The position numbers were made by a program, and so were the translations under genes. DNA of 34,234 bases from Trueperaceae bacterium. Its GTDB lineage: Bacteria; Deinococcota; Deinococci; Deinococcales; Trueperaceae. The notes under the pieces are model-generated. The model was not told the origin of the DNA. It searched no databases and worked only from the letters and a program-made list of their open reading frames with translations. Shown here in pieces: positions 13,641 to 23,109 of the stretch. Where the stretch lies: positions 1-34,234 of the forward strand of contig JAABTL010000028.1 of NCBI GenBank assembly GCA_011389865.1, in the 5' to 3' direction. Position 1 is the first letter of the stretch; each line of letters begins with the position of its first letter.

Positions 13641-13646
13641 AGTCTA
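13641..13646 (-). promoter_or_regulatory. Candidate -10 overlapping the regulator stop codon
   Basis: On the minus strand TAGACT ends 42 bases before the DUF4242 ATG and includes the TAG stop (13646-13644) of the SARP-type regulator. It matches the TAnnnT pattern seen at other starts here. No -35 is recognised. Confidence 0.3.
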
Positions 13647-16600
13647 GGGCAGGGCGCTCCCCGCCCGACCGGTCGCGCCGCCGACCAGCTTCGCCAGCGC
13701 CTCGATCGTTGCCGCCGCGCCCTCGTCGTCGCCACGACCGCGCCGCAGCCCGAGCGAGCGCTCCAGGCAGGCCCGCGCCTCCTCGACCCGTCCCGCGCGC
13801 TCGTAGCTCGAGGCGAGGCTGGTGAGGAGGAGGGCTTCGCCGAGCGGATCGGTGCCTGCCCGGCGGACCCGTTCCAAGGCGTCGCACCCCGCCTCGATGC
13901 TCTCGTCGAGCCGCCCCTGGTCGCGGTAGACGACCCCCAGGCTCGCGCGCGCGGCGATCGCCCGCTCGGGCATCTCGGCGCCCACCGCCGTGTCGAAGGC
14001 GTCCCGGTAGGACACCGCGGCCCGCTCCAGGTCGCCCTCACCCCAATGGAGGGCGCCGAGTTCCATCTGCACCAAGCCCAACCGGTGGGCGTCGCCCGAG
14101 CGGCCGAAGATCGCCTCTGCCGACGCGAGGCTGGCCCGTGCGACCTCGGGGCGCCCCAACTTGCGGCGGGCCAAGCCGCCATGCAGGACCAGGGCGTCGC
14201 CCTGACCGACCTCGTCCTCGACCATCCCGGTCATCGCGTACGAGGCCTCCAGGAGCCGCGCCGCCGAGAGGTAGCTGCGGCTCGCGTCCTCGAACGCGCC
14301 CAGCCCTTCGAGGGCCACGCCGGCGCTGATGCGCGGGTACCCTTCGTGGCGCAGGTCGCCGGTGGCTGCGCCCTGCCGGATGGCTGCCTCGAAGTTGTCG
14401 AGCGCGCGCTGGTAGCGGCGGGCGCCAAGGTAGATCTTGCCCAGGTTCATGTGCTTCTCGACGACGAGGTGCTTGTCCTCGAGCTGCACGCAGATGGGCA
14501 GCAAGCGCTCCAGCACCTCGGCGGCGGCCGGCTCGTCGCCGTCCCGGAGGTGCATCCAGGCGCGAAGGTCCAGACGCACGTAGTTCGCCAGGAGGCTGCC
14601 GAGCTCGTCGTAGATCGCCGCGGCCCGCTCCGCCCACCGCTGGGCTTCGTCGTCGTCGCCCAGCCACCTGTACGCGTGGGAGACGTTCTCGGCGGTGGCG
14701 GCCAGCGCCCGGCGGTGCCCCAGCTCCCGGTCGATCGCCATGGCCGCGAAGCTCGACGCGATGACCTCCTGGTAATCGCCGCGCATCCAGGCGAGGTACG
14801 CGACTTCGCGGTAGCCGCGCGCCCTGGAACCGGCGTCACCGAGCCCCTCGAAGAGCGCGTCGGCCTCCTCGAACGCCGCCGCCGCGCCGGCGCGGTCGCC
14901 CTGCACCGACCGCATCGCCATCCGCTTCAGGGCGGCCTCCGCCCGCATGGCCGGGTCCCCGATCCGGTCCGCGAGCACCGTCAGGCGCTCGATCGTGTCG
15001 ATCCACTCCGGCCTCCGGCCCATGAACTCGAGCAGCCGCTCGATCGCCTGCAGCGCCTCGAAGCGCTTGCGGTCCGGCTCCGCCAGCCGCGCTGCGATGC
15101 CCAGCATGCGCGCGTACGCGTCGCGCGCGACCTCCCACGCGCTGTCCGCCTCGGCGAAGCGCGCCGCCACCTGCAGATGCTCGTACGCCTCTGGCCACAG
15201 CTCGGCCCGCAAGAAGTGGTGCGCCAACTCGGCGTCGCCCGCGCCATCCGCCTCCAGCGCGCGGGCGACCCGGGCGTGGAGGGCCCGCCTCGCGGGAGGC
15301 CCCAGGCTCTCGTAGACCGTCTGCCGCAGCTTGTCGTGGGAGAAGGCGTACGACCCATCCGCGGCGGCGACGATCAGTCCGGCAGCGATGAGCGGTTCGA
15401 ACGTCGACCACACCACCAGCGGCGCGCCACCGACCACGCGCTCGAGCACGCCGAACGCGAACGAACGACCGATGACGGCCGCCGCATCCAGCACGGCGCG
15501 AGGTCCCTCGTCGAAGGCCTGGTAGCGGGCCCAGATCAGCGACCGGATCGACTCCGGGACCGCCGCCCCAGCGAGCCCCTCATCGCTGGGCGCGGCGACC
15601 GGCCGGGCGGCCCCCGGCTCGAGTTGGTGGGTGTCGCGCAGCCAGCGCAGGTACTCGAGGACGTAGAACGGGTTCCCTTCGGACTCGTCGTGGACGTACG
15701 CCGCGAACCGCTCCAGGTCGGCGCCGTGCCAGCCGAGGACCTCGGCCACGAGGCTGCGGGTGTGGTCGGCCTCCAAGCGGCCAAGCTGAAGGCTGCGGAG
15801 CGCTCGCCGTTCCGACAGTTGGGCCTTCCAGCGCTCGAGCGCCGGCCGATCTTCACGACGGTGGCTGGCCACGATCAGGACGCGCTCGTCCCGGATGCGG
15901 TGGGCGGCGTAGGAGAGGAACTCGAGCGTCGCGGCATCGGACCACTGCAGGTCGTCGACGAACAGCACCGCTCCCTGGCCGCGTGCGGCGGCCTCGACCA
16001 GCCGCGCGGTCAGCGCGCGATGGACGCCGCCGCGATCGCGGGGATCGGAGGCCACGAAGCGCGAGGCGTCCGGTTCCAGCGTCGCGGCCGTGGCGTCCAG
16101 GGCGCCCAACGCCGCGCGAATGGGCTCGAGGGGCGCGCTCAGGTCACGCTCGTAGCAGCGGCCGGCGAACGCCTCGACGCCCTGGGGAAGGGCGGCCAGG
16201 AAGGTCTCGACGAGACGCGTCTTGCCGACGCCGGCCTCCCCCTCGACCACCACGACGCCGCCCTCGCCGGCGAGGGCCGACGCGAGGCGCTCGTCGAGTT
16301 CCGCGAGTTCGGCGCGCCGGCCGACGAACGACGTCGTGCCCCAGGGCACGCTCAGGCTGCGCGCGAGCGACATCGGAAGGGTCGGATCCCCGGTGGGCGG
16401 TGCGGCCGGACCAGCGGCGAGCGCCTCGTGCAGGGCCCGGAGGGAGCCGTCGGGTTCGATGCCGAGTTCGGCGTCGAGGTCGCGGGCGTAGGTCGCGTAC
16501 ACGCGCGCCGCCGCGTCGTGGCGCCCCGCGGCCGCGAGGCACCGCAAGGCGCACCGGACGGCGTGCTCGTCGAGCGGGTCCGTCCGCAGGAGCGCCAGCG

Positions 16601-17096
16601 ACAGCTCGGCAGCGGCTGCGGGCTCGGAGCGCTGGAGCTGCTCGCAGCGCGCCACGACCGCGTCGACGAGCCGCGTCCGGAGTTGCGCGCGTTCGCGGTC
16701 CAGCCAGGCGAGGAACTCGCCGGGCGCGCCTACGTCCAGCCCTTCGAGCAAGGGTCCGCGGACCAGCGCCAAGGCACCCGCCGCGTCCGGAGTGCGCAGC
16801 GCGTCGCGCCACGCGCCGAGGTCGGAGGCCACGAGCCAGCGGAAGCGGTCGCCCTCCGCTTCGATGCCGTCCACCAGCTGGCGCGCGCGGTGGAGCAGCT
16901 TGCGCAGGTTCCGACGCCCGACCGCGTCCACACGGTCGGGCCAGAACAGGAAGACCACCTCTTCGCGCGCCACCCAACCCGAGCGGACCGCCAGGTACGC
17001 CACGAACCGGTGGAGCTGGTTCGCGGCGAGGAACGTTCGTCGTCCATCGCCTTGCAGTTCCGGACGGCCGAAGAGCCGTACGGTGTCGACGAGCAT
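13644..17096 (-). CDS. SARP/BTAD-AAA ATPase-TPR transcriptional regulator
   Basis: This 1150-residue AfsR-like STAND regulator has, in order, a winged-helix-like N-terminus (about 1-90: 'VRLFGRPEL', 'RRNLRKLLHRARQLV'), a bacterial transcriptional activation domain (about 95-240, ending 'ATYARDLDAELGIEPDGSLRAL'), an AAA/NB-ARC-like ATPase with Walker A GEAGVGKT (286-293) and Walker B 'VLFVDDLQW' (377-385), a helical/winged segment ('AFSHDKLRQTVYESL'), and many TPR-like helices to the C-terminus. Such proteins use ATP and ligand or protein sensing to activate nearby genes. The small N-terminal DNA-binding region is less canonical than in Streptomyces SARPs. No SD is present; TATACT lies five bases before ATG, suggesting a leaderless mRNA. 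Likely targets are the DUF4242 and flavoenzyme genes downstream, or the divergent lipoprotein gene. Confidence 0.9.
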   Translation of the reverse strand: MLVDTVRLFGRPELQGDGRRTFLAANQLHRFVAYLAVRSGWVAREEVVFLFWPDRVDAVGRRNLRKLLHRARQLVDGIEAEGDRFRWLVASDLGAWRDALRTPDAAGALALVRGPLLEGLDVGAPGEFLAWLDRERAQLRTRLVDAVVARCEQLQRSEPAAAAELSLALLRTDPLDEHAVRCALRCLAAAGRHDAAARVYATYARDLDAELGIEPDGSLRALHEALAAGPAAPPTGDPTLPMSLARSLSVPWGTTSFVGRRAELAELDERLASALAGEGGVVVVEGEAGVGKTRLVETFLAALPQGVEAFAGRCYERDLSAPLEPIRAALGALDATAATLEPDASRFVASDPRDRGGVHRALTARLVEAAARGQGAVLFVDDLQWSDAATLEFLSYAAHRIRDERVLIVASHRREDRPALERWKAQLSERRALRSLQLGRLEADHTRSLVAEVLGWHGADLERFAAYVHDESEGNPFYVLEYLRWLRDTHQLEPGAARPVAAPSDEGLAGAAVPESIRSLIWARYQAFDEGPRAVLDAAAVIGRSFAFGVLERVVGGAPLVVWSTFEPLIAAGLIVAAADGSYAFSHDKLRQTVYESLGPPARRALHARVARALEADGAGDAELAHHFLRAELWPEAYEHLQVAARFAEADSAWEVARDAYARMLGIAARLAEPDRKRFEALQAIERLLEFMGRRPEWIDTIERLTVLADRIGDPAMRAEAALKRMAMRSVQGDRAGAAAAFEEADALFEGLGDAGSRARGYREVAYLAWMRGDYQEVIASSFAAMAIDRELGHRRALAATAENVSHAYRWLGDDDEAQRWAERAAAIYDELGSLLANYVRLDLRAWMHLRDGDEPAAAEVLERLLPICVQLEDKHLVVEKHMNLGKIYLGARRYQRALDNFEAAIRQGAATGDLRHEGYPRISAGVALEGLGAFEDASRSYLSAARLLEASYAMTGMVEDEVGQGDALVLHGGLARRKLGRPEVARASLASAEAIFGRSGDAHRLGLVQMELGALHWGEGDLERAAVSYRDAFDTAVGAEMPERAIAARASLGVVYRDQGRLDESIEAGCDALERVRRAGTDPLGEALLLTSLASSYERAGRVEEARACLERSLGLRRGRGDDEGAAATIEALAKLVGGATGRAGSALP

Positions 17097-17272: not shown

Positions 17273-17674
17273 ATGAACCGACTCCTGCTCGTACTCCTGA
17301 CGGCGCTGCCGCTGGCCGCCTGCGCACCGACCTCCGGGGCCATGGTGCCCGCCACCGGTCCACTCCTCTACGCCGCCGAAGCCGATGACGTGTTCGCCAG
17401 CGTCATGCACATCATCACCACGGCCGAGGGGCTCGAGAACTCCAACGGCTGGATCATCTCCGAGAGCGACAGCGAGGGTGGTTTCGTGCGGGCCGACACG
17501 ACGGTCTTGACGCCGTGGAGGTTCTGGGCGCCGCAGCGCGTCGAGACGCTCAGCGTGGCGGTGTCGGAGGCCTCGCCCGGACGTACGCAGGTCGTCATCC
17601 AGCGCACCGCCGGTGCCCGCGCGCTCGAGGTGCGCCTGCACGGCATGCTCGCCGAGGCCCACGAGCGCCTCTGA
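17273..17674 (+). CDS. Small lipoprotein of unknown function
   Basis: This 133-residue protein has a classic lipoprotein signal, 'LTALPLAAC' (Cys17). The remainder, about 115 residues, has alternating hydrophobic strands: 'DDVFASVMHIITTAEGLENSNGWIISESDSEGGFVRADT' and 'VETLSVAVSEASPGRTQVVIQRT'. That pattern (helix, strand 'GW.I...D...G.I.A..', then two long strands) is common in small Gram-negative lipoproteins, but I cannot name the family. GGAGGA lies six bases before ATG 17273. It is transcribed divergently from the SARP-type regulator and runs toward the glycosyltransferase gene, whose end is 23 bases away. Confidence 0.78.
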   Translation: MNRLLLVLLTALPLAACAPTSGAMVPATGPLLYAAEADDVFASVMHIITTAEGLENSNGWIISESDSEGGFVRADTTVLTPWRFWAPQRVETLSVAVSEASPGRTQVVIQRTAGARALEVRLHGMLAEAHERL

Positions 17675-17697: not shown

Positions 17698-18873
17698 CTA
17701 CACCCAGCGCGTCGGCGGCCGCTCCACGGCGCGCCCCTTCCAGGTCGCGCGTCGGAACACGCCGTCGACGAAGGACCGCACCGCGACCGCCAGGAACGCC
17801 ACGAACGTCACCGGGTAGAGGAGCGCCGGCCACAGCGGCAGCCGCAGCCGGGCGTAGGTGAACGTCCATTGGACGAGCGAGAGCGCGATGGCGGCGGCGA
17901 GCAGCGCGGGCTGCGCGGGCACGCGGGTGGGCAGCGCGGCATGGAGTAACAGGATCGCGATCGGCGTCAGGTACGCGTACGCCAGCCAGCCCCACGCGAA
18001 GGCGTAGGGGAGGATGGCGTAGCCGAACGCCGCGAAGAGGTTCTTGGCGAACCCGGCCATGGCCTCCCGGCCGCCGCGGTACATGCGGCAACTGACGATC
18101 GAGGTGGCGTCCAGGATGCGGCAGGCGAGGCCCGCGCCGGCGACGCGCCTGGCCAGGTCTAGGTCGTCGACGACGCTACCGCGTACGGCCGCGTGTCCGC
18201 CGACGGCGTCGTAGGCCCCGCGGCGGAAGACCATGAGCTGCCCGACGGCGCGGGCGACGGGCGCCCGGCGCCACAGGAGGTGCGCGGCCAGCGGCGTGAA
18301 GCCGAGGAACGCCCAGTAGAACAGCGGGACGAGCAGCTGCTCGCCCGGGGTCCCGAGGGCCTGCCGCGGCAGGCCGGAGAGCAGGTCCGCCCGGCTCGCC
18401 TGCAACGCTCCGATGGTCTTGTCGACGGCGTCCGGCTCGAAGAAGACCGTGTCCGCGTCGGCGAAGAGCAGCACGTCGCCGTGCGCCGCGAGCGAGAGCT
18501 GGTGGCAGGCCCAGTTCTTGCCCGTCCAGCCCGGCGGCGGCTTCTCGCCCGGCAGGACGACGAGGCGGGCATCGCGCGCGCGCTCGCGCTCGAGGATGGC
18601 GCGGGTGTCGTCCTCCGAGCGGTCGTCGAGCACCAGGATCTCGAGGCGGGGGTAGGCCTGCGCCAGCAGCGAGCGGACGCAGGCCCCCACGTTGGCCGCC
18701 TCGTTGCGGGCCGGCACGAGGAGCGAGACCAGCGGCTGTGTGCCGGATCCCGTGCGTCGCGGGCGCACCAGCACGGCGGCGTTGCTGAAGACGACGAGCA
18801 GCACGACGGCCTGGAACGCGAGGATGCCGACGATGGCGTCCCCGGTCAGGTGCTGGACGAGCCCTTCGATCAC
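17698..18873 (-). CDS. Membrane glycosyltransferase family 2, CrtQ/HpnB-like
   Basis: The 391-residue protein has an N-terminal membrane anchor (about 13-36), then a GT-A domain: 'SLLVPARNEAANVGACV' (50-66), 'LVLDDRSEDDT' (80-90), 'PPPGWTGKNWACHQL', the metal-binding 'LLFADADT' (Asp139/Asp141) and 'SVVDDLDLARRV' near 233-244. The C-terminus has three or four membrane helices (about 285-375). 'PPGWTGKNWA' is characteristic of the branch holding carotenoid glycosyltransferase CrtQ and hopanoid-associated HpnB. A lipid or isoprenoid acceptor on the cytoplasmic face is therefore likely, though not proven. The GTG start overlaps the plsY stop (GTGA), so the two enzymes are made together. Confidence 0.88.
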   Translation of the reverse strand: MIEGLVQHLTGDAIVGILAFQAVVLLVVFSNAAVLVRPRRTGSGTQPLVSLLVPARNEAANVGACVRSLLAQAYPRLEILVLDDRSEDDTRAILERERARDARLVVLPGEKPPPGWTGKNWACHQLSLAAHGDVLLFADADTVFFEPDAVDKTIGALQASRADLLSGLPRQALGTPGEQLLVPLFYWAFLGFTPLAAHLLWRRAPVARAVGQLMVFRRGAYDAVGGHAAVRGSVVDDLDLARRVAGAGLACRILDATSIVSCRMYRGGREAMAGFAKNLFAAFGYAILPYAFAWGWLAYAYLTPIAILLLHAALPTRVPAQPALLAAAIALSLVQWTFTYARLRLPLWPALLYPVTFVAFLAVAVRSFVDGVFRRATWKGRAVERPPTRWV

Positions 18874-19490
18874 GGCGAGCGGCTTCCCCGGCGCCGGCGT
18901 CGGGGTGGCTGCGCGAGCTCGGCACGGTGCTTCCACAGGATGGTCACGGCCTGGAGGAGCAGCGCGCCCAGCGGCCAGCCACCCGGCACCCACAGCAGCA
19001 CGCCGAGGAACATCGCCGCGAGCGTGGCCGCGACCGCCCACGCGTCGGGCTGGATCAGGAGCGTCGCAGCCACGATGGCGACGATCGCGACGAGCGGGAT
19101 CGTCCAGGTCGTCAGCCCGATCCAGGTGCCCAGCGTGACCGCCAGCGCCTTGCCGCCACGGAAGCCGAGGAACGGCGAGAACGCGGCGCCGGCGACCGCC
19201 AGGACCGCGACCAGCGCCAGCGCCCAGCCGCCCAGGCCGAGCCCGTCGCGGGCGAGGACGACCGGCAGGACGCCCTTGGTCACGTCGAGGAGCAGCACGG
19301 CGATGCCCAGCCAGACGCCGCCCGCGCGGAAGGCGTTCGTCGCCCCCGGGTTGCCGTCGCCCACCTCGCGCACGTCGCGCTTCGTCACGATGCGCCCGAC
19401 CCACAGGGAGAACGGCAGGGAGCCGCTCAGGAACGCCACGAGCCACGCGAACGCGACAGATGCCCACGGGCTCGATGCAGTTAGGTCCAC
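18870..19490 (-). CDS. plsY: Glycerol-3-phosphate acyltransferase PlsY
   Basis: The product is a 206-residue integral membrane enzyme that transfers an acyl group from acyl-phosphate to glycerol-3-phosphate, the first step of phospholipid synthesis. The three PlsY signature blocks are present: 'SGSLPFSLWVGR' (22-33), 'VGDGNPGATNAFRAGG' (43-58) and 'FRGGKALAVTLG' (110-121), with 'DVTKG' at 69-73. About five membrane helices are expected. The C-terminus carries a basic tail (PRRRRRGSR). The GTG at 19490 has GGCGGAG five bases upstream and a TAGCAT -10-like element at 19512-19517. It is coupled to the glycosyltransferase and divergent from the four-gene redox cassette. Confidence 0.95.
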   Translation of the reverse strand: MDLTASSPWASVAFAWLVAFLSGSLPFSLWVGRIVTKRDVREVGDGNPGATNAFRAGGVWLGIAVLLLDVTKGVLPVVLARDGLGLGGWALALVAVLAVAGAAFSPFLGFRGGKALAVTLGTWIGLTTWTIPLVAIVAIVAATLLIQPDAWAVAATLAAMFLGVLLWVPGGWPLGALLLQAVTILWKHRAELAQPPRRRRRGSRSP

Positions 19491-19511
19491 GGATGCTCCG
19501 CCTCGAAGAAC

Positions 19512-19557
19512 ATGCTACCCCGCGTCGCGCCGGTCGCCCGGGACCGGGTGGTAGGAT
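19512..19557. promoter_or_regulatory. Divergent promoter region between plsY and the redox cassette
   Basis: TAGCAT (minus strand, 19512-19517) faces plsY with about 21 bases to its GTG. TAGGAT (plus strand, 19552-19557) faces the cassette at 19657. Both match TAnnnT. The two -10 elements are 34 bases apart, close enough for shared control. Neither has a clear -35. Confidence 0.35.
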
Positions 19558-19656
19558 TCACCGTCGCCGACGCGAACGACCGCCGCCGCCCCCGTTGCTC
19601 GGGCCCGGCGCGGACGCGCCCACGGTGGCCGCGGCGCCGCCTCGAGGAGGCTGGAG

Positions 19657-20103
19657 ATGGACGTGCTCACCATCGTGATCATCGCCTTCGGCACGCTGGA
19701 ACTCCTCAACGTCCTGACGCTCTACCTGGCGCCGGGATCCCGCAGGGGCAACGCGCTGGGCGTCTTCCGGGCCTACGAGCGGTCGAAGCAGGACCCCGAG
19801 GTCCACGCCCTGGTGAGCTACCTCATCGACTGGGTGGCCGGCACCAAGCTGATCTTCATCGTGCTGCTGATCGGGATCGTCATCACCGGCTCGCCCGCGA
19901 CCAAGGTGTTCAGCGCCATCGCCCTGATCTTCTCGATCCTGACCTTCTACTCCCGGCTCTACCCCGCCATCACGCAGATGGACCGGGCGGGGCAGATCGA
20001 GCCGCGGGGGTACTCCCGGACGCTGGCGGGCATGATCGCCGGTTTCGTCGTCGTCTTCGCCGTCGCGGTCGTCGTCTACCTCGTCGGGTACGCGGCCGGA
20101 TGA
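19657..20103 (+). CDS. Four-helix membrane protein, first gene of redox cassette
   Basis: This 148-residue protein of unknown family is predicted to have four membrane helices, about 2-24, 62-79, 82-99 and 123-146. A conserved-looking polar stretch lies between the first two ('LAPGSRRGNALGVFRAYERSKQDPEVH'). 'FYSRLYPAITQMDRAGQIEPRGYSRTL' lies in the loop before the last helix. No catalytic motif is recognised. GGAGG lies near 19646, with ATG at 19657. Its stop overlaps the next gene's ATG (ATGA), so it is translationally coupled to the NTF2-like protein. It could anchor the cassette's soluble enzymes at the membrane, which is only a positional inference. Confidence 0.85.
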   Translation: MDVLTIVIIAFGTLELLNVLTLYLAPGSRRGNALGVFRAYERSKQDPEVHALVSYLIDWVAGTKLIFIVLLIGIVITGSPATKVFSAIALIFSILTFYSRLYPAITQMDRAGQIEPRGYSRTLAGMIAGFVVVFAVAVVVYLVGYAAG

Positions 20104-20570
20104 CGGCGGACCCTGGCACGGTGCGCGAGCCGCCGCGGACGGGGCTGGACCCGGACACGGTGCGGGAGGTCTGGTCACGGACCTACAACACGAGCGGTAA
20201 GCCGGACTGGTCGCACATCTTCCCCTACTACCGCGACGACGTCGTCTTCCAGGACGCCATCCAGCGGGTCGAGGGCCGCGAGGCCTTCGAGGCCCTGTGC
20301 GACCGCCTCGCGAAGCGCTGCCGCGAGCTGCGCATGCACATCGTCGACGTGTCGCAGACGGACCGCATCATCTTCCTCGAGTGGGAGATGACGCTCATGT
20401 TCCAGCGTTACCCCAGCTCGACGCTCTACGGATGCACCAAGCTGACGCTCGACGAGGACGGCCTGATCGCCCGCCAGCGTGACTACTACGACCTGTGGGG
20501 CGACATCTTCGACAACATCCCGCGCCTCGCGAAGGCGTACCGCCGTTTCATGCGCCGGAAGTTCGGTTAA
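20100..20570 (+). CDS. NTF2-like (SnoaL-type) protein
   Basis: This 156-residue cone-barrel protein of the nuclear-transport-factor-2 superfamily has the helix-strand-helix start 'DTVREVWSRTYNTSGKPDWSHIFPYYRDDVVFQDAIQRVEGREAFEAL', typical of this fold. Then come strands 'MHIVDVSQTDRIIFLEWEMTLMF' and 'STLYGCTKLTLDEDGLIARQRDYYD'. The closing 'DYYDLW' block is common to SnoaL/ketosteroid-isomerase relatives that bind small hydrophobic molecules in the cone. Asp and His positions that could serve as general acid-base are present, but I cannot assign catalysis. The ATG overlaps the membrane-protein stop by four bases, and the SDR gene starts three bases after its own stop. It is likely a partner or isomerase in the same pathway as the SDR and FAD enzyme. 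Confidence 0.85.
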   Translation: MTADPGTVREPPRTGLDPDTVREVWSRTYNTSGKPDWSHIFPYYRDDVVFQDAIQRVEGREAFEALCDRLAKRCRELRMHIVDVSQTDRIIFLEWEMTLMFQRYPSSTLYGCTKLTLDEDGLIARQRDYYDLWGDIFDNIPRLAKAYRRFMRRKFG

Positions 20571-20573
20571 GCC

Positions 20574-21515
20574 GTGTTCCGCTACCTGAGGCAGTACGAC
20601 ATGGCAGACATGCGCGACATGCTGCGGAACCAGCGCACCGCGCACCGACGGACGACGGCATCGCTCGAGGGGAAGACGGTCGTCATCTCGGGATCCACGT
20701 CCGGCGTCGGCCTCGCCGCCGCCCGCGAGGTCGCGCGCTTCGGCGGGCGCCTGGTGCTGCTGGCGCGCAACGAGGCGAAGGGGCGGGCCGTGTGCGCCGA
20801 GCTCGAGCGGGACTCAGGGGCCGAGGTGTCGCTCCACCTCGCCGACTTCGCGCGCCTCGCCGACGTGCGCCGCGTGGCCGACGAGCTGCTCGACGCCGTC
20901 CCGCGCATCGACGTGCTCATCAACAGCGCGGGGGTGCACAGCACGCGCAGGCGGGAGACGGACGAGGGGCACGAGCTCGTGTTCTGCGTGAACCACCTGG
21001 CGCCCTTCCTGCTGACCCTCCGGCTGCTCCCCAAGCTGCGAGACGGCGGCGCGGCGCGCATCATCCAGGTGAACTCGCAGGGGCACCGCTTCGGCGGCCT
21101 GGACCTCGCCGACCTGGACTGGCGGCGGCGCTGGTACCTGGGTCTGCTGGCGTACGGCGCGTCGAAGACGGCCCAACTGCTGTCCGTGTGGGAGCTCGCC
21201 GAGCGGCTGGCGGGGAGCGGCGTGACCGTCAACGCGATGCACCCGGGGGAGGTCCGCACGGGGATCGGCCTCAACAACGGTCCGCTCTACCGCTGGTACC
21301 AGCGGCGCGTGCTGGACCGGTTCCTCGGCGACGCACGCGTCTCCGGGGAGTCGCTGCACACCCTGGCCGCGGCGCCGGAGCTCGGCGGGGTGAGCGGCCG
21401 CTACTTCAACAGGACGCACCCGGAGAAACCCGCGCCGCACGCGCTGGACCGCGCCGTGGGGGCGCGGCTGTGGGAGATGAGCATGGACCTGACGGGGTCG
21501 AGCGATGACGTTTGA
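20574..21515 (+). CDS. SDR-family NAD(P)-dependent oxidoreductase, retinol-dehydrogenase-like
   Basis: This 313-residue short-chain dehydrogenase has the nucleotide-binding 'SGSTSGVG' (39-46), 'NSAG' (117-120, usually NNAG), catalytic Ser168, Tyr194 and Lys198 in 'YGASK', then 'VNAMHPGEVRTGIG', the typical post-active-site block. 'LARNEAKG' after the second strand favours NADP(H), as in retinol dehydrogenase/WWOX-like members. It has about 30 extra N-terminal residues ahead of the Rossmann fold. The start is GTG at 20574 with little SD, consistent with coupling to the preceding gene. Its last 11 bases overlap the FAD oxidoreductase gene. A keto-steroid, retinoid, fatty or isoprenoid substrate is plausible. 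Confidence 0.9.
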   Translation: MFRYLRQYDMADMRDMLRNQRTAHRRTTASLEGKTVVISGSTSGVGLAAAREVARFGGRLVLLARNEAKGRAVCAELERDSGAEVSLHLADFARLADVRRVADELLDAVPRIDVLINSAGVHSTRRRETDEGHELVFCVNHLAPFLLTLRLLPKLRDGGAARIIQVNSQGHRFGGLDLADLDWRRRWYLGLLAYGASKTAQLLSVWELAERLAGSGVTVNAMHPGEVRTGIGLNNGPLYRWYQRRVLDRFLGDARVSGESLHTLAAAPELGGVSGRYFNRTHPEKPAPHALDRAVGARLWEMSMDLTGSSDDV

Positions 21516-23109
21516 CGTCCTGGTGGTGGGCGGCGGCGCCGCGGGCCTGACCGCCGCGGCCTACGCCGCCCGGGCGGGCCGCACCGTCGCGCTCTTCGAG
21601 CGGCAGGCGCGGCTCGGGGGTCTGGTGCAGTCGGTGGAGCGCGACGGCTTCGTCTTCGACATGGGGCTGCGGGCCGTCGAGAACGCGGGGATCGTCCTGC
21701 CCATGCTCGAGGAGCTCGGCCTGCGACTGGACTTCGTGCGCAGTCCGGTGTCGATCGGGATCGGGAACGACCTCATCCGGGTCGATTCCGAGGCGTCGCT
21801 GGCCGACTACCGCGATCTGCTGGTGCGGACCTACCCCGACAGCGCCGCCGACGTCGACCGGATCATGGCCCTGATCACCCGGATCATGCGGGACATGGAC
21901 GTCCTGTACGGCATCGACAACCCGCTGTTCAAGGACCTCATGGCCGACCGGCGCTACCTCTTCGGGACGCTGCTGCCGTGGATGTTCCGCTTCGTGGTCA
22001 CCATCGGGCGCATCAACCGCATGTCGGGGCCGGTCGAGGCCCTGCTGGACGAGCTGACCGACGACGACGGGCTGAAGAGCATCATCGGGCAGCACTTCTT
22101 CAAGGGGACCCCGGCGTTCTTCGCGATGAGCTACTTCAGCGTCTACCTCGACTACCTCTACCCGCGCGGCGGCACGGCGGCCCTGATGGGGCTGCTGGAG
22201 GGCTACGTCCGCGAGCGTGGCGTGGACGTGCGGACCGAACTGCCGATCGTGGGCGTCGACCCGGAGGCGCGCACGGTCAGCGACCGCGACGGCGGCGTCC
22301 ACGGCTACCGGCGCCTGATCTGGTGCGCGGACCTCAAGACGCTCTACCGCGCCATCGACGCCGCGGCCATCGCCGACCCGCGCCTGGCCGGGGCGGTCGC
22401 CGCGCGGCGCGCCGAGCTGGAGGTGAGCTCGGGCAGCGACTCCGTGCTCTCGCTCTTCCTCTCGGTGGACGAGGCTCCCGAGACGTTCGCGGCGATCTCC
22501 GAGGGGCACCTCTTCTACTCACCCGACGCCCGCGGCCTGGGCGACCTGCACACGCGGGGCCTGGAGGAACTGCTCGCGCGGCACGCGGACGAACCGCTGC
22601 CCGAGGAGCCGGCGAAGGCCTACCTCGACGCCTACTTCGCCCGCACGACCTACGAGGTCTCCATCCCGGTCCTCAAGGACCCGGCGCTCGCGCCGCCGGG
22701 GAAGACCGGGCTCGTCGTCAGCACCCTCTTCGACTACCGGCTCACCCGCAGGATCCAGGAGGCAGGCTGGTACGACGCGTTCCGGGAGCACGCCGCGGAC
22801 GCGATGACGGCGGTTCTCGACGCGCGGCTGTACCCGGGGCTGGGCGCGAAGGTCCTCTCGCGCTTCACGACCACGCCCGTCACGCTCGAGGCCTACACGG
22901 GCAACGCCGACGGCGCCATCGTCGGTTGGGCGTTCGACGGCGCGCGCATGCCGGCCGTCCACCAGATGCAGCGGGTCGCGCGGTCCGTGCTGACCCCCAT
23001 GCCCGACGTCCTGCAGGCGGGGCAATGGGCCTACAGCCCGGGGGGCGTGCCCATGGCGTTCCTCACGGGGAAGCTGGCGGCGGAGCGGGCGGGGAAGGGA
23101 CGCCGCTAG
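21505..23109 (+). CDS. FAD-dependent oxidoreductase, CrtI/phytoene-desaturase-like
   Basis: This 534-residue protein has an N-terminal FAD dinucleotide fold, 'VLVVGGGAAGLTAAAYAARAG' (GxGxxG at 9-14), then 'LFERQARLGGLVQSVERDGFVFDMG', the CrtI/amine-oxidase-like block. A central substrate region contains 'YFSVYLDYLYPRGGTAALMGLL', like the 'YPxGGxxxl' motif of carotenoid desaturases. The C-terminal FAD-closing region reads 'VLQAGQWAYSPGGVPMAFLTGKLAAE'. Relatives desaturate, isomerise or saturate long hydrophobic polyenes; no substrate is proven, and phytoene desaturation should not be assumed since no phytoene synthase is here. ATG 21505 lies within the end of the SDR gene (11-base overlap). 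It is the last gene of the cassette and is convergent with the alpha-amylase gene 28 bases away. Confidence 0.87.
   Translation: MTFDVLVVGGGAAGLTAAAYAARAGRTVALFERQARLGGLVQSVERDGFVFDMGLRAVENAGIVLPMLEELGLRLDFVRSPVSIGIGNDLIRVDSEASLADYRDLLVRTYPDSAADVDRIMALITRIMRDMDVLYGIDNPLFKDLMADRRYLFGTLLPWMFRFVVTIGRINRMSGPVEALLDELTDDDGLKSIIGQHFFKGTPAFFAMSYFSVYLDYLYPRGGTAALMGLLEGYVRERGVDVRTELPIVGVDPEARTVSDRDGGVHGYRRLIWCADLKTLYRAIDAAAIADPRLAGAVAARRAELEVSSGSDSVLSLFLSVDEAPETFAAISEGHLFYSPDARGLGDLHTRGLEELLARHADEPLPEEPAKAYLDAYFARTTYEVSIPVLKDPALAPPGKTGLVVSTLFDYRLTRRIQEAGWYDAFREHAADAMTAVLDARLYPGLGAKVLSRFTTTPVTLEAYTGNADGAIVGWAFDGARMPAVHQMQRVARSVLTPMPDVLQAGQWAYSPGGVPMAFLTGKLAAERAGKGRR

Follow-up and report, generated by a model that had tools for sequence, protein, structure and literature searches.

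In M. extorquens, the glycosyltransferase META1p3663 and the product of the adjacent gene, the PlsC-like acyltransferase META1p3664, have been reported to act in turn on an oxidised C30 carotenoid, an acid, which is first glucosylated and then acylated (PMC10448405). The staphyloxanthin proteins CrtQ and CrtO likewise attach a sugar and then an acyl group to an oxidised isoprenoid, and in both systems a membrane glycosyltransferase is encoded next to a lipid-type acyltransferase (PlsC-like in M. extorquens, CrtO in the staphyloxanthin pathway), beside flavin adenine dinucleotide (FAD) enzymes of the CrtI superfamily. Here we analyse a contig of 34,234 nucleotides from a Trueperaceae bacterium (JAABTL010000028.1, assembly GCA_011389865.1; this whole stretch is called the window below), which contains a divergent six-gene block of comparable layout. 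One arm encodes a PlsY-like acyltransferase and a glycosyltransferase (named here PlsYb and GTb, b for block), and the other is a redox cassette formed by the membrane protein TM148, a SnoaL-like protein, a short-chain dehydrogenase/reductase (SDR) and an FAD oxidoreductase (FADox). The acyltransferase here derives from PlsY, and SnoaL-SDR-FADox-TM148 stand in the place that CrtN/CrtP/AldH have as oxidising genes in the described systems; the functional likeness proposed here is read from the genes. The six divergently arranged genes form a conserved unit that has been inherited as a whole, with a patchy distribution among Trueperaceae.

The six-gene block and its conservation

The host genome (3.05 Mb, 97% complete) encodes four PF02660 proteins. 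The features of the locus, in window coordinates, are the following:

17698 to 18873, minus strand: GTb, a membrane glycosyltransferase of family GT2, 391 amino acids (PF13641/PF00535; CrtQ/CruG/HpnB-like group)
18870 to 18873, minus strand: GTGA, the four-base overlap between the plsYb stop and the GTb start
18870 to 19490, minus strand: PlsYb, a PlsY-like acyltransferase of 206 amino acids (PF02660, 132.9 bits; gathering cut-off 24.1)
19512 to 19517, minus strand: TAGCAT, a -10-like element 21 bases before plsYb
19552 to 19557, plus strand: TAGGAT, a -10-like element 99 bases before TM148
19657 to 20103, plus strand: TM148, a helical membrane protein of no known family
20100 to 20570, plus strand: a SnoaL-like/NTF2-fold protein (PF12680)
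20574 to 21515, plus strand: the SDR, with a YGASK active site (PF00106)
21505 to 23109, plus strand: FADox, an FAD oxidoreductase of carotenoid-desaturase fold (PF01593)

A first-pass annotation of positions 17698 to 19657, an interval that covers the pair and the intergenic region and ends on the first base of TM148, had described the two genes of the pair, their GTGA overlap and a 'PPGWTGKNWA' block in the glycosyltransferase, and all of these were confirmed. It had also asked whether the divergent arrangement is conserved, and within the family the six genes were found to travel as one block. FADox orthologues occurred in 9/111 genomes of the phylum, all of them among the 39 Trueperaceae genomes. 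Orthologues of plsYb (at least 66% identity) were present in eight of the 111 genomes, and the next-best matches by score were about 40% identical, with no more than 46% among the matches listed; GTb orthologues, which were sought within the family, were found in 8/39 genomes. All eight genomes with plsYb and GTb orthologues also carried FADox (p ~1.5e-7 for GTb and FADox in a simple hypergeometric count that ignores kinship). The whole block lay on a single contig in seven loci, among them L051, whose GTb was clipped by the contig end; the block of genome G014 was spread over two contigs, and the locus of G003 ended inside FADox. Every gene of the block was thus present where the contig reached far enough. 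Separate occurrence of the two arms, which had been named as an observation that would speak against a common locus, was found in one direction: no pair without the cassette was detected (plsY sought in 111 phylum genomes, the glycosyltransferase in 39 family genomes), and the cassette occurred without the pair in 11/11 loci from outside the family (see below).

The arrangement of the genes was also constant. The overlap between plsYb and GTb was four bases in 8/8 orthologous loci, and the overlap of TM148 and SnoaL (4 bases), the gap between SnoaL and SDR (3) and the overlap of SDR and FADox (11) were identical in 7/7 loci; a spirochaete locus (L070) shared these last three spacings. Distances of the left and right halves of the block were correlated (r 0.79), an equally high value being obtained in 8 of 5000 permutations. 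The block was present or absent as a unit, in a patchy manner, across genomes of three genera while its flanks varied: of three flanking genes tested, a SARP-like fragment alone recurred, in one genome (G016). When plsYb was compared with plasmids by tblastn, 45 records were obtained, all below 60% identity, and most of the 20 that were listed bore a plsY label; FADox gave three partial matches.

The intergenic region contains two -10-like elements, TAGCAT on the minus strand and TAGGAT on the plus strand, 34 bases apart, as had been described in the first-pass annotation. On the plsYb side, a TAnnnT element was kept 19-21 or 11 bases before the gene in 7/7 loci, versus 0.12-0.61 expected per strand. 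On the plus strand, TAG(G/C)AT was found in 4/7 loci at a distance varying from 9 to 123, and the 34-base spacing is therefore not conserved. A strict sigma-70 scan returned no promoter. A promoter region shared by the pair and the cassette is plausible.

The acyltransferase PlsYb and its glycosyltransferase partner

PlsYb had been described as a phospholipid-starting acyltransferase, an identity that could not be maintained. It missed the cut-off of the PlsY equivalog TIGR00023 (116.9 versus 137.2 bits), and a paralogue encoded on contig C44 of the same genome passed it (170.0 bits), being the canonical plsY. Residues of the pocket were read by alignment to the Aquifex PlsY structure 5xj5 and are given in Aquifex numbering. 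In the Aquifex enzyme, S35, R45, K104 and N180 are reported to hold the phosphate of glycerol-3-phosphate, H92 to assist acyl phosphate binding, and the variants S35A, N180A and N180D each to keep less than 5% of the activity, the loss in N180D being attributed by the authors to charge repulsion of the phosphate (PMC5700162). All seven complete PlsYb orthologues carried S35D and H92A, and N180 was replaced in every one of them by E (3), Q (3) or H (1), the window copy being N180E. R45 and K104 were retained in 7/7, H177 in six and T41 in five. According to the same source, D occupies position 35 in 2.7% of 7,288 PlsY homologues, so that D35 also occurs in other family members and is no peculiarity of PlsYb. 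A PlsY sequence was obtained from 30 of 34 loci (none from L003, L004, L045 and L151), and S35 and N180 were present in 24/24 non-orthologous PlsYs of the phylum that were read. The orthologue at L151, read separately as L050, had N180H and H177L, and the PlsY of L003, read by eye, retained GSGN. The motif GDGNPGA(T/M)N was found in 6/111 genomes of the phylum, every time at the block locus.

PlsYb is thus like the glycerol-3-phosphate acyltransferase PlsY in its PF02660 fold, its motif spacing and the pair R45 and K104, and differs from it at positions 35, 92 and 180, in its TIGR00023 score and in being a paralogue of the canonical PlsY of its genome. Since the equivalog cut-off was missed, the phosphate clamp is altered and a canonical plsY lies elsewhere, PlsYb, judged by score and pocket residues, is not the housekeeping, phospholipid-starting PlsY. 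It appears to have acquired a different acceptor, for which the simplest candidate is a neutral hydroxyl, for example on a sugar added by the coupled GTb. Among the open-licence titles listed, none was on a PlsY coupled to a glycosyltransferase, which is weak evidence of absence, and a search on Trueperaceae lipids gave unrelated titles only.

The glycosyltransferase had been called CrtQ/HpnB-like. GTb does belong to the carotenoid/hopanoid-linked group of GT2 enzymes, with long alignments to both the HpnB and the CruG models, but its scores were far under both curated cut-offs (154.7 versus 379.25 bits for TIGR03469, HpnB; 117.1 versus 600 for NF045692, CruG). No hopene cyclase (PF13249) was detected in the host genome, in a search whose B. 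subtilis control was positive. An HpnB, hopanoid-linked identity was rejected on these two grounds, the missed TIGR03469 cut-off and the lack of a hopene cyclase.

Another contig of the host genome, C11, carries a carotenoid cluster (locus L054, 2962-8956) coding for a CrtB-type synthase, a CrtO/CrtI-like enzyme, a lycopene cyclase/CruF fusion, a PlsC-like acyltransferase and a glycosyltransferase that is about 43% identical to GTb; similar clusters are located on Thermus pTT27 and on plasmid 2 of Deinococcus deserti. The search for glycosyltransferases in the family gave 44 matches, of which 30 were examined as loci and 14 were left out. Among these 30, all 22 loci of carotenoid type carried a PlsC-like gene but lacked plsY, and all eight GTb loci carried plsYb but lacked PlsC. 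A maximum-likelihood tree of 36 glycosyltransferases was then read with a midpoint root; it includes two long rows, and CrtQ of S. aureus lies outside the sample. In this phylogeny, which the first-pass annotation had suggested with CrtQ as one of the references, the eight GTb proteins formed one clade (support 100/98), apart from the carotenoid-cluster enzymes, and the clade joined the Azospirillum L191 and L084 glycosyltransferases and one from a spirochaete at an unsettled fork (87/88). L191 and L084 contain pairs of CrtI-family or amine-oxidase type, L084 also an aldehyde dehydrogenase, and from this gene content we read them as probable C30-type clusters. A recent duplication of the carotenoid-cluster glycosyltransferase as the origin of GTb was unsupported, GTb and 24 carotenoid-side enzymes being separate in the tree.

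The redox cassette inside and outside Trueperaceae

TM148 had no Pfam or NCBIfam match, giving sub-threshold Pfam matches only; its model shows five helices (pLDDT 82), and no PDB match to the fold was found at E <= 0.001. The YxxxK motif was retained in 19/19 SDRs examined. FADox did not reach the cut-off of the CrtI family model TIGR02734 (57.5 versus 238.1 bits). The nearest structure to its model (pLDDT 89.5) was the carotenoid desaturase 4rep (Z 29.3, root mean square deviation 3.8, 448 residues aligned), the next having Z 25.8.

The order NTF2/SnoaL, SDR, FAD enzyme is the same as in the phr-NTF2-SDR-FAD-DUF1365-Cfa block of Salinivibrio and Aeromonas. The SnoaL-like protein is homologous to the NTF2 protein of that block (E 6e-17), and the SDR and FADox are distantly similar to their counterparts in the Vibrionaceae block, FADox matching the FAD enzymes over the FAD-binding part only (E 8e-4). 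Unlike that block and the Rhodobacter Ufa operon, the locus has no adjacent DUF1365 or Cfa gene: DUF1365 was absent from the six genes, to which the Pfam scan for this domain was confined, and no Cfa-type methyltransferase (PF02353) was found in the host genome. Membership in a Cfa/furan fatty acid operon was rejected because of the missing Cfa and the weak similarity of the FAD enzyme.

Outside the family, SDR and FADox were found together in 11 loci: in a spirochaete, a sediment bacterium and metagenome-assembled genomes (MAGs) of Lokiarchaea (six), a Thorarchaeon, Atribacteria and Sphaerochaetaceae. SnoaL preceded the SDR in nine of them; L074 starts inside the SDR, and in the Thorarchaeal locus L076 SnoaL was not found. 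The spirochaete cassette includes a TM148 that is 72% identical to that of the window, and a second TM148 copy lies at a contig edge of this MAG (G111:C62, L180, 1-195). FADox was present in 14/148 genomes of the phylum of the Lokiarchaeal genome G113. All eight Asgard loci fetched had at least part of the SDR, five had SnoaL, and one had a TM148 (45% identical) divergent from SDR-FADox (L206, 7139-10371). By its gene arrangement, L206 shows TM148 as a putative partner of the cassette across domains. The sediment bacterium encodes a 35% identical glycosyltransferase about 10 kb from the cassette on the same contig. A squalene/phytoene synthase family protein was found in two of the 11 non-Trueperaceae cassette genomes (MAGs), and, since the other nine had none, the cassette seems not to depend on carotenoids. 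None of the open-licence titles listed was on the SnoaL-SDR-FADox trio in Lokiarchaeota, again weak evidence of absence. In the Sphaerochaetaceae MAG locus L075 (7983-11235), two FADox copies face each other beside SDR and SnoaL, and in the Lokiarchaeal loci L073 (9625-11688) and L080 (8535-10587) two similar-looking proteins of about 337 amino acids adjoin the trio.

Next to the block in the window, a protein of 1150 amino acids is encoded at lower coordinates than the pair (13644-17096, minus strand); by its look we take it to resemble a SARP/AfsR-type regulator, and the fragment that adjoins the block in G016 (L048) is 73% identical to it. An open reading frame of 133 amino acids (17273-17674, plus strand), with a lipoprotein-like start and no Pfam or NCBIfam match, is convergent with the 3' end of GTb.

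A possible pathway and its alternatives

We give about even chances to the reading that the block encodes one pathway, for a membrane lipid decorated by oxidation, glycosylation and acylation. This reading is based on the analogy with the proven glycosyltransferase/PlsC pair of the C30 carotenoid glycosyl esters, and the adjacent and coupled glycosyltransferase and acyltransferase genes of such a glycosyl-ester module were found at all eight loci. From the linkage, the pocket changes and the homologies described above, we infer the substrates, the order of the steps and the product. FADox and the SDR would oxidise or reduce a long hydrophobic chain, probably isoprenoid and alternatively an acyl chain, and thereby introduce or alter a hydroxyl, aldehyde or acid group at its end, with the SnoaL-like protein as a possible accessory or isomerase and TM148 as a putative membrane partner. 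GTb would then put a sugar onto the terminal group of the oxidised chain. PlsYb, translationally coupled to GTb, would acylate that sugar or another neutral hydroxyl; it would be a PlsY fold shifted off glycerol-3-phosphate by the replacement of two of the four phosphate-holding residues, and would take the role that PlsC-like or CrtO enzymes have in carotenoid glycosyl esters. The divergent locus for a glycosylated, redox-tailored membrane lipid proposed in the first-pass annotation is thus, with the six genes conserved as a block, still the best reading, once the PlsY and HpnB identities of its enzymes are corrected.

Several observations weigh against a decorated lipid made by all six genes. 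FastTree gave the two halves of the block different topologies, and divergence is quicker in the pair (mean distance 0.30 for PlsYb/GTb) than in the cassette (0.14-0.24). Neither plsYb nor GTb was found in the 11 non-family loci, the eight Asgard loci or six longer regions, some of them overlapping. R45 and K104 are kept, so the acceptor of PlsYb may be anionic; H92A, together with T41M in two orthologues, would weaken acyl-phosphate binding, and the donor may differ or the activity be low. The lipid handled by the pair could also have nothing to do with the cassette, the two sharing no more than a promoter region.

As an alternative, the product could be a glycerolipid: PlsYb would supply a special pool of phospholipid with a lysophosphatidic-type lipid, GTb would glycosylate a diacylglycerol-like lipid and the cassette would tailor acyl chains. 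The membership of PlsYb in PF02660 with R45 and K104 intact and the homology of the SnoaL-like protein to its counterpart in the Vibrionaceae Cfa block are consistent with it, and UfaD of R. sphaeroides is a proven acyl-modifying desaturase (PMC7380195). However, the altered phosphate clamp, the lack of a Cfa family member in the genome and the confinement of the FADox similarity to the FAD-binding part make this alternative unlikely. A second carotenoid end-group pathway, in which the block would make a glycosylated, acylated carotenoid alongside the C11 cluster, appears doubtful as well. The gene content of C11, the fold of FADox, nearest to 4rep, and the grouping of GTb with glycosyltransferases of C30-type clusters point towards it, but nine of the 11 cassette genomes outside the family manage without a squalene/phytoene synthase and FADox falls below the CrtI family cut-off. 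That two unrelated operons stand side by side, held together only by an intergenic region with both promoters, is very improbable: the cassette does occur by itself in Spirochaetes, Asgard archaea and Atribacteria and the promoter spacing is not conserved, but the block comes and goes as a unit in three genera while its flanks change.

Returning to the decorated lipid, a wider, speculative and improbable proposal is that the cassette would be an undescribed lipid-redox pathway common to Asgard archaea, spirochaetes, Atribacteria and Trueperaceae, with a polyprenol or another isoprenoid other than a carotenoid as its substrate. The eukaryotic dolichol route consists of three steps, from alcohol to aldehyde, saturation, and back to alcohol, and a polyprenol could be processed by the cassette through the same conversions. 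Trueperaceae would have gained GTb and a PlsY with a rebuilt acceptor site, which would be the first PlsY-fold enzyme to acylate a glycolipid. With its strongly conserved sequence, the cassette is shared by bacteria and Asgard archaea and offers a defined gene set for a putative common lipid modification. PlsY is regarded as having a single purpose and as a drug target; a clade whose acceptor pocket was rebuilt, and which is coupled to a glycosyltransferase at every locus, would mean that the acyl-phosphate acyltransferase fold has been recruited to glycolipid finishing, and would call for caution, as PF02660 matches would not all be phospholipid starters.

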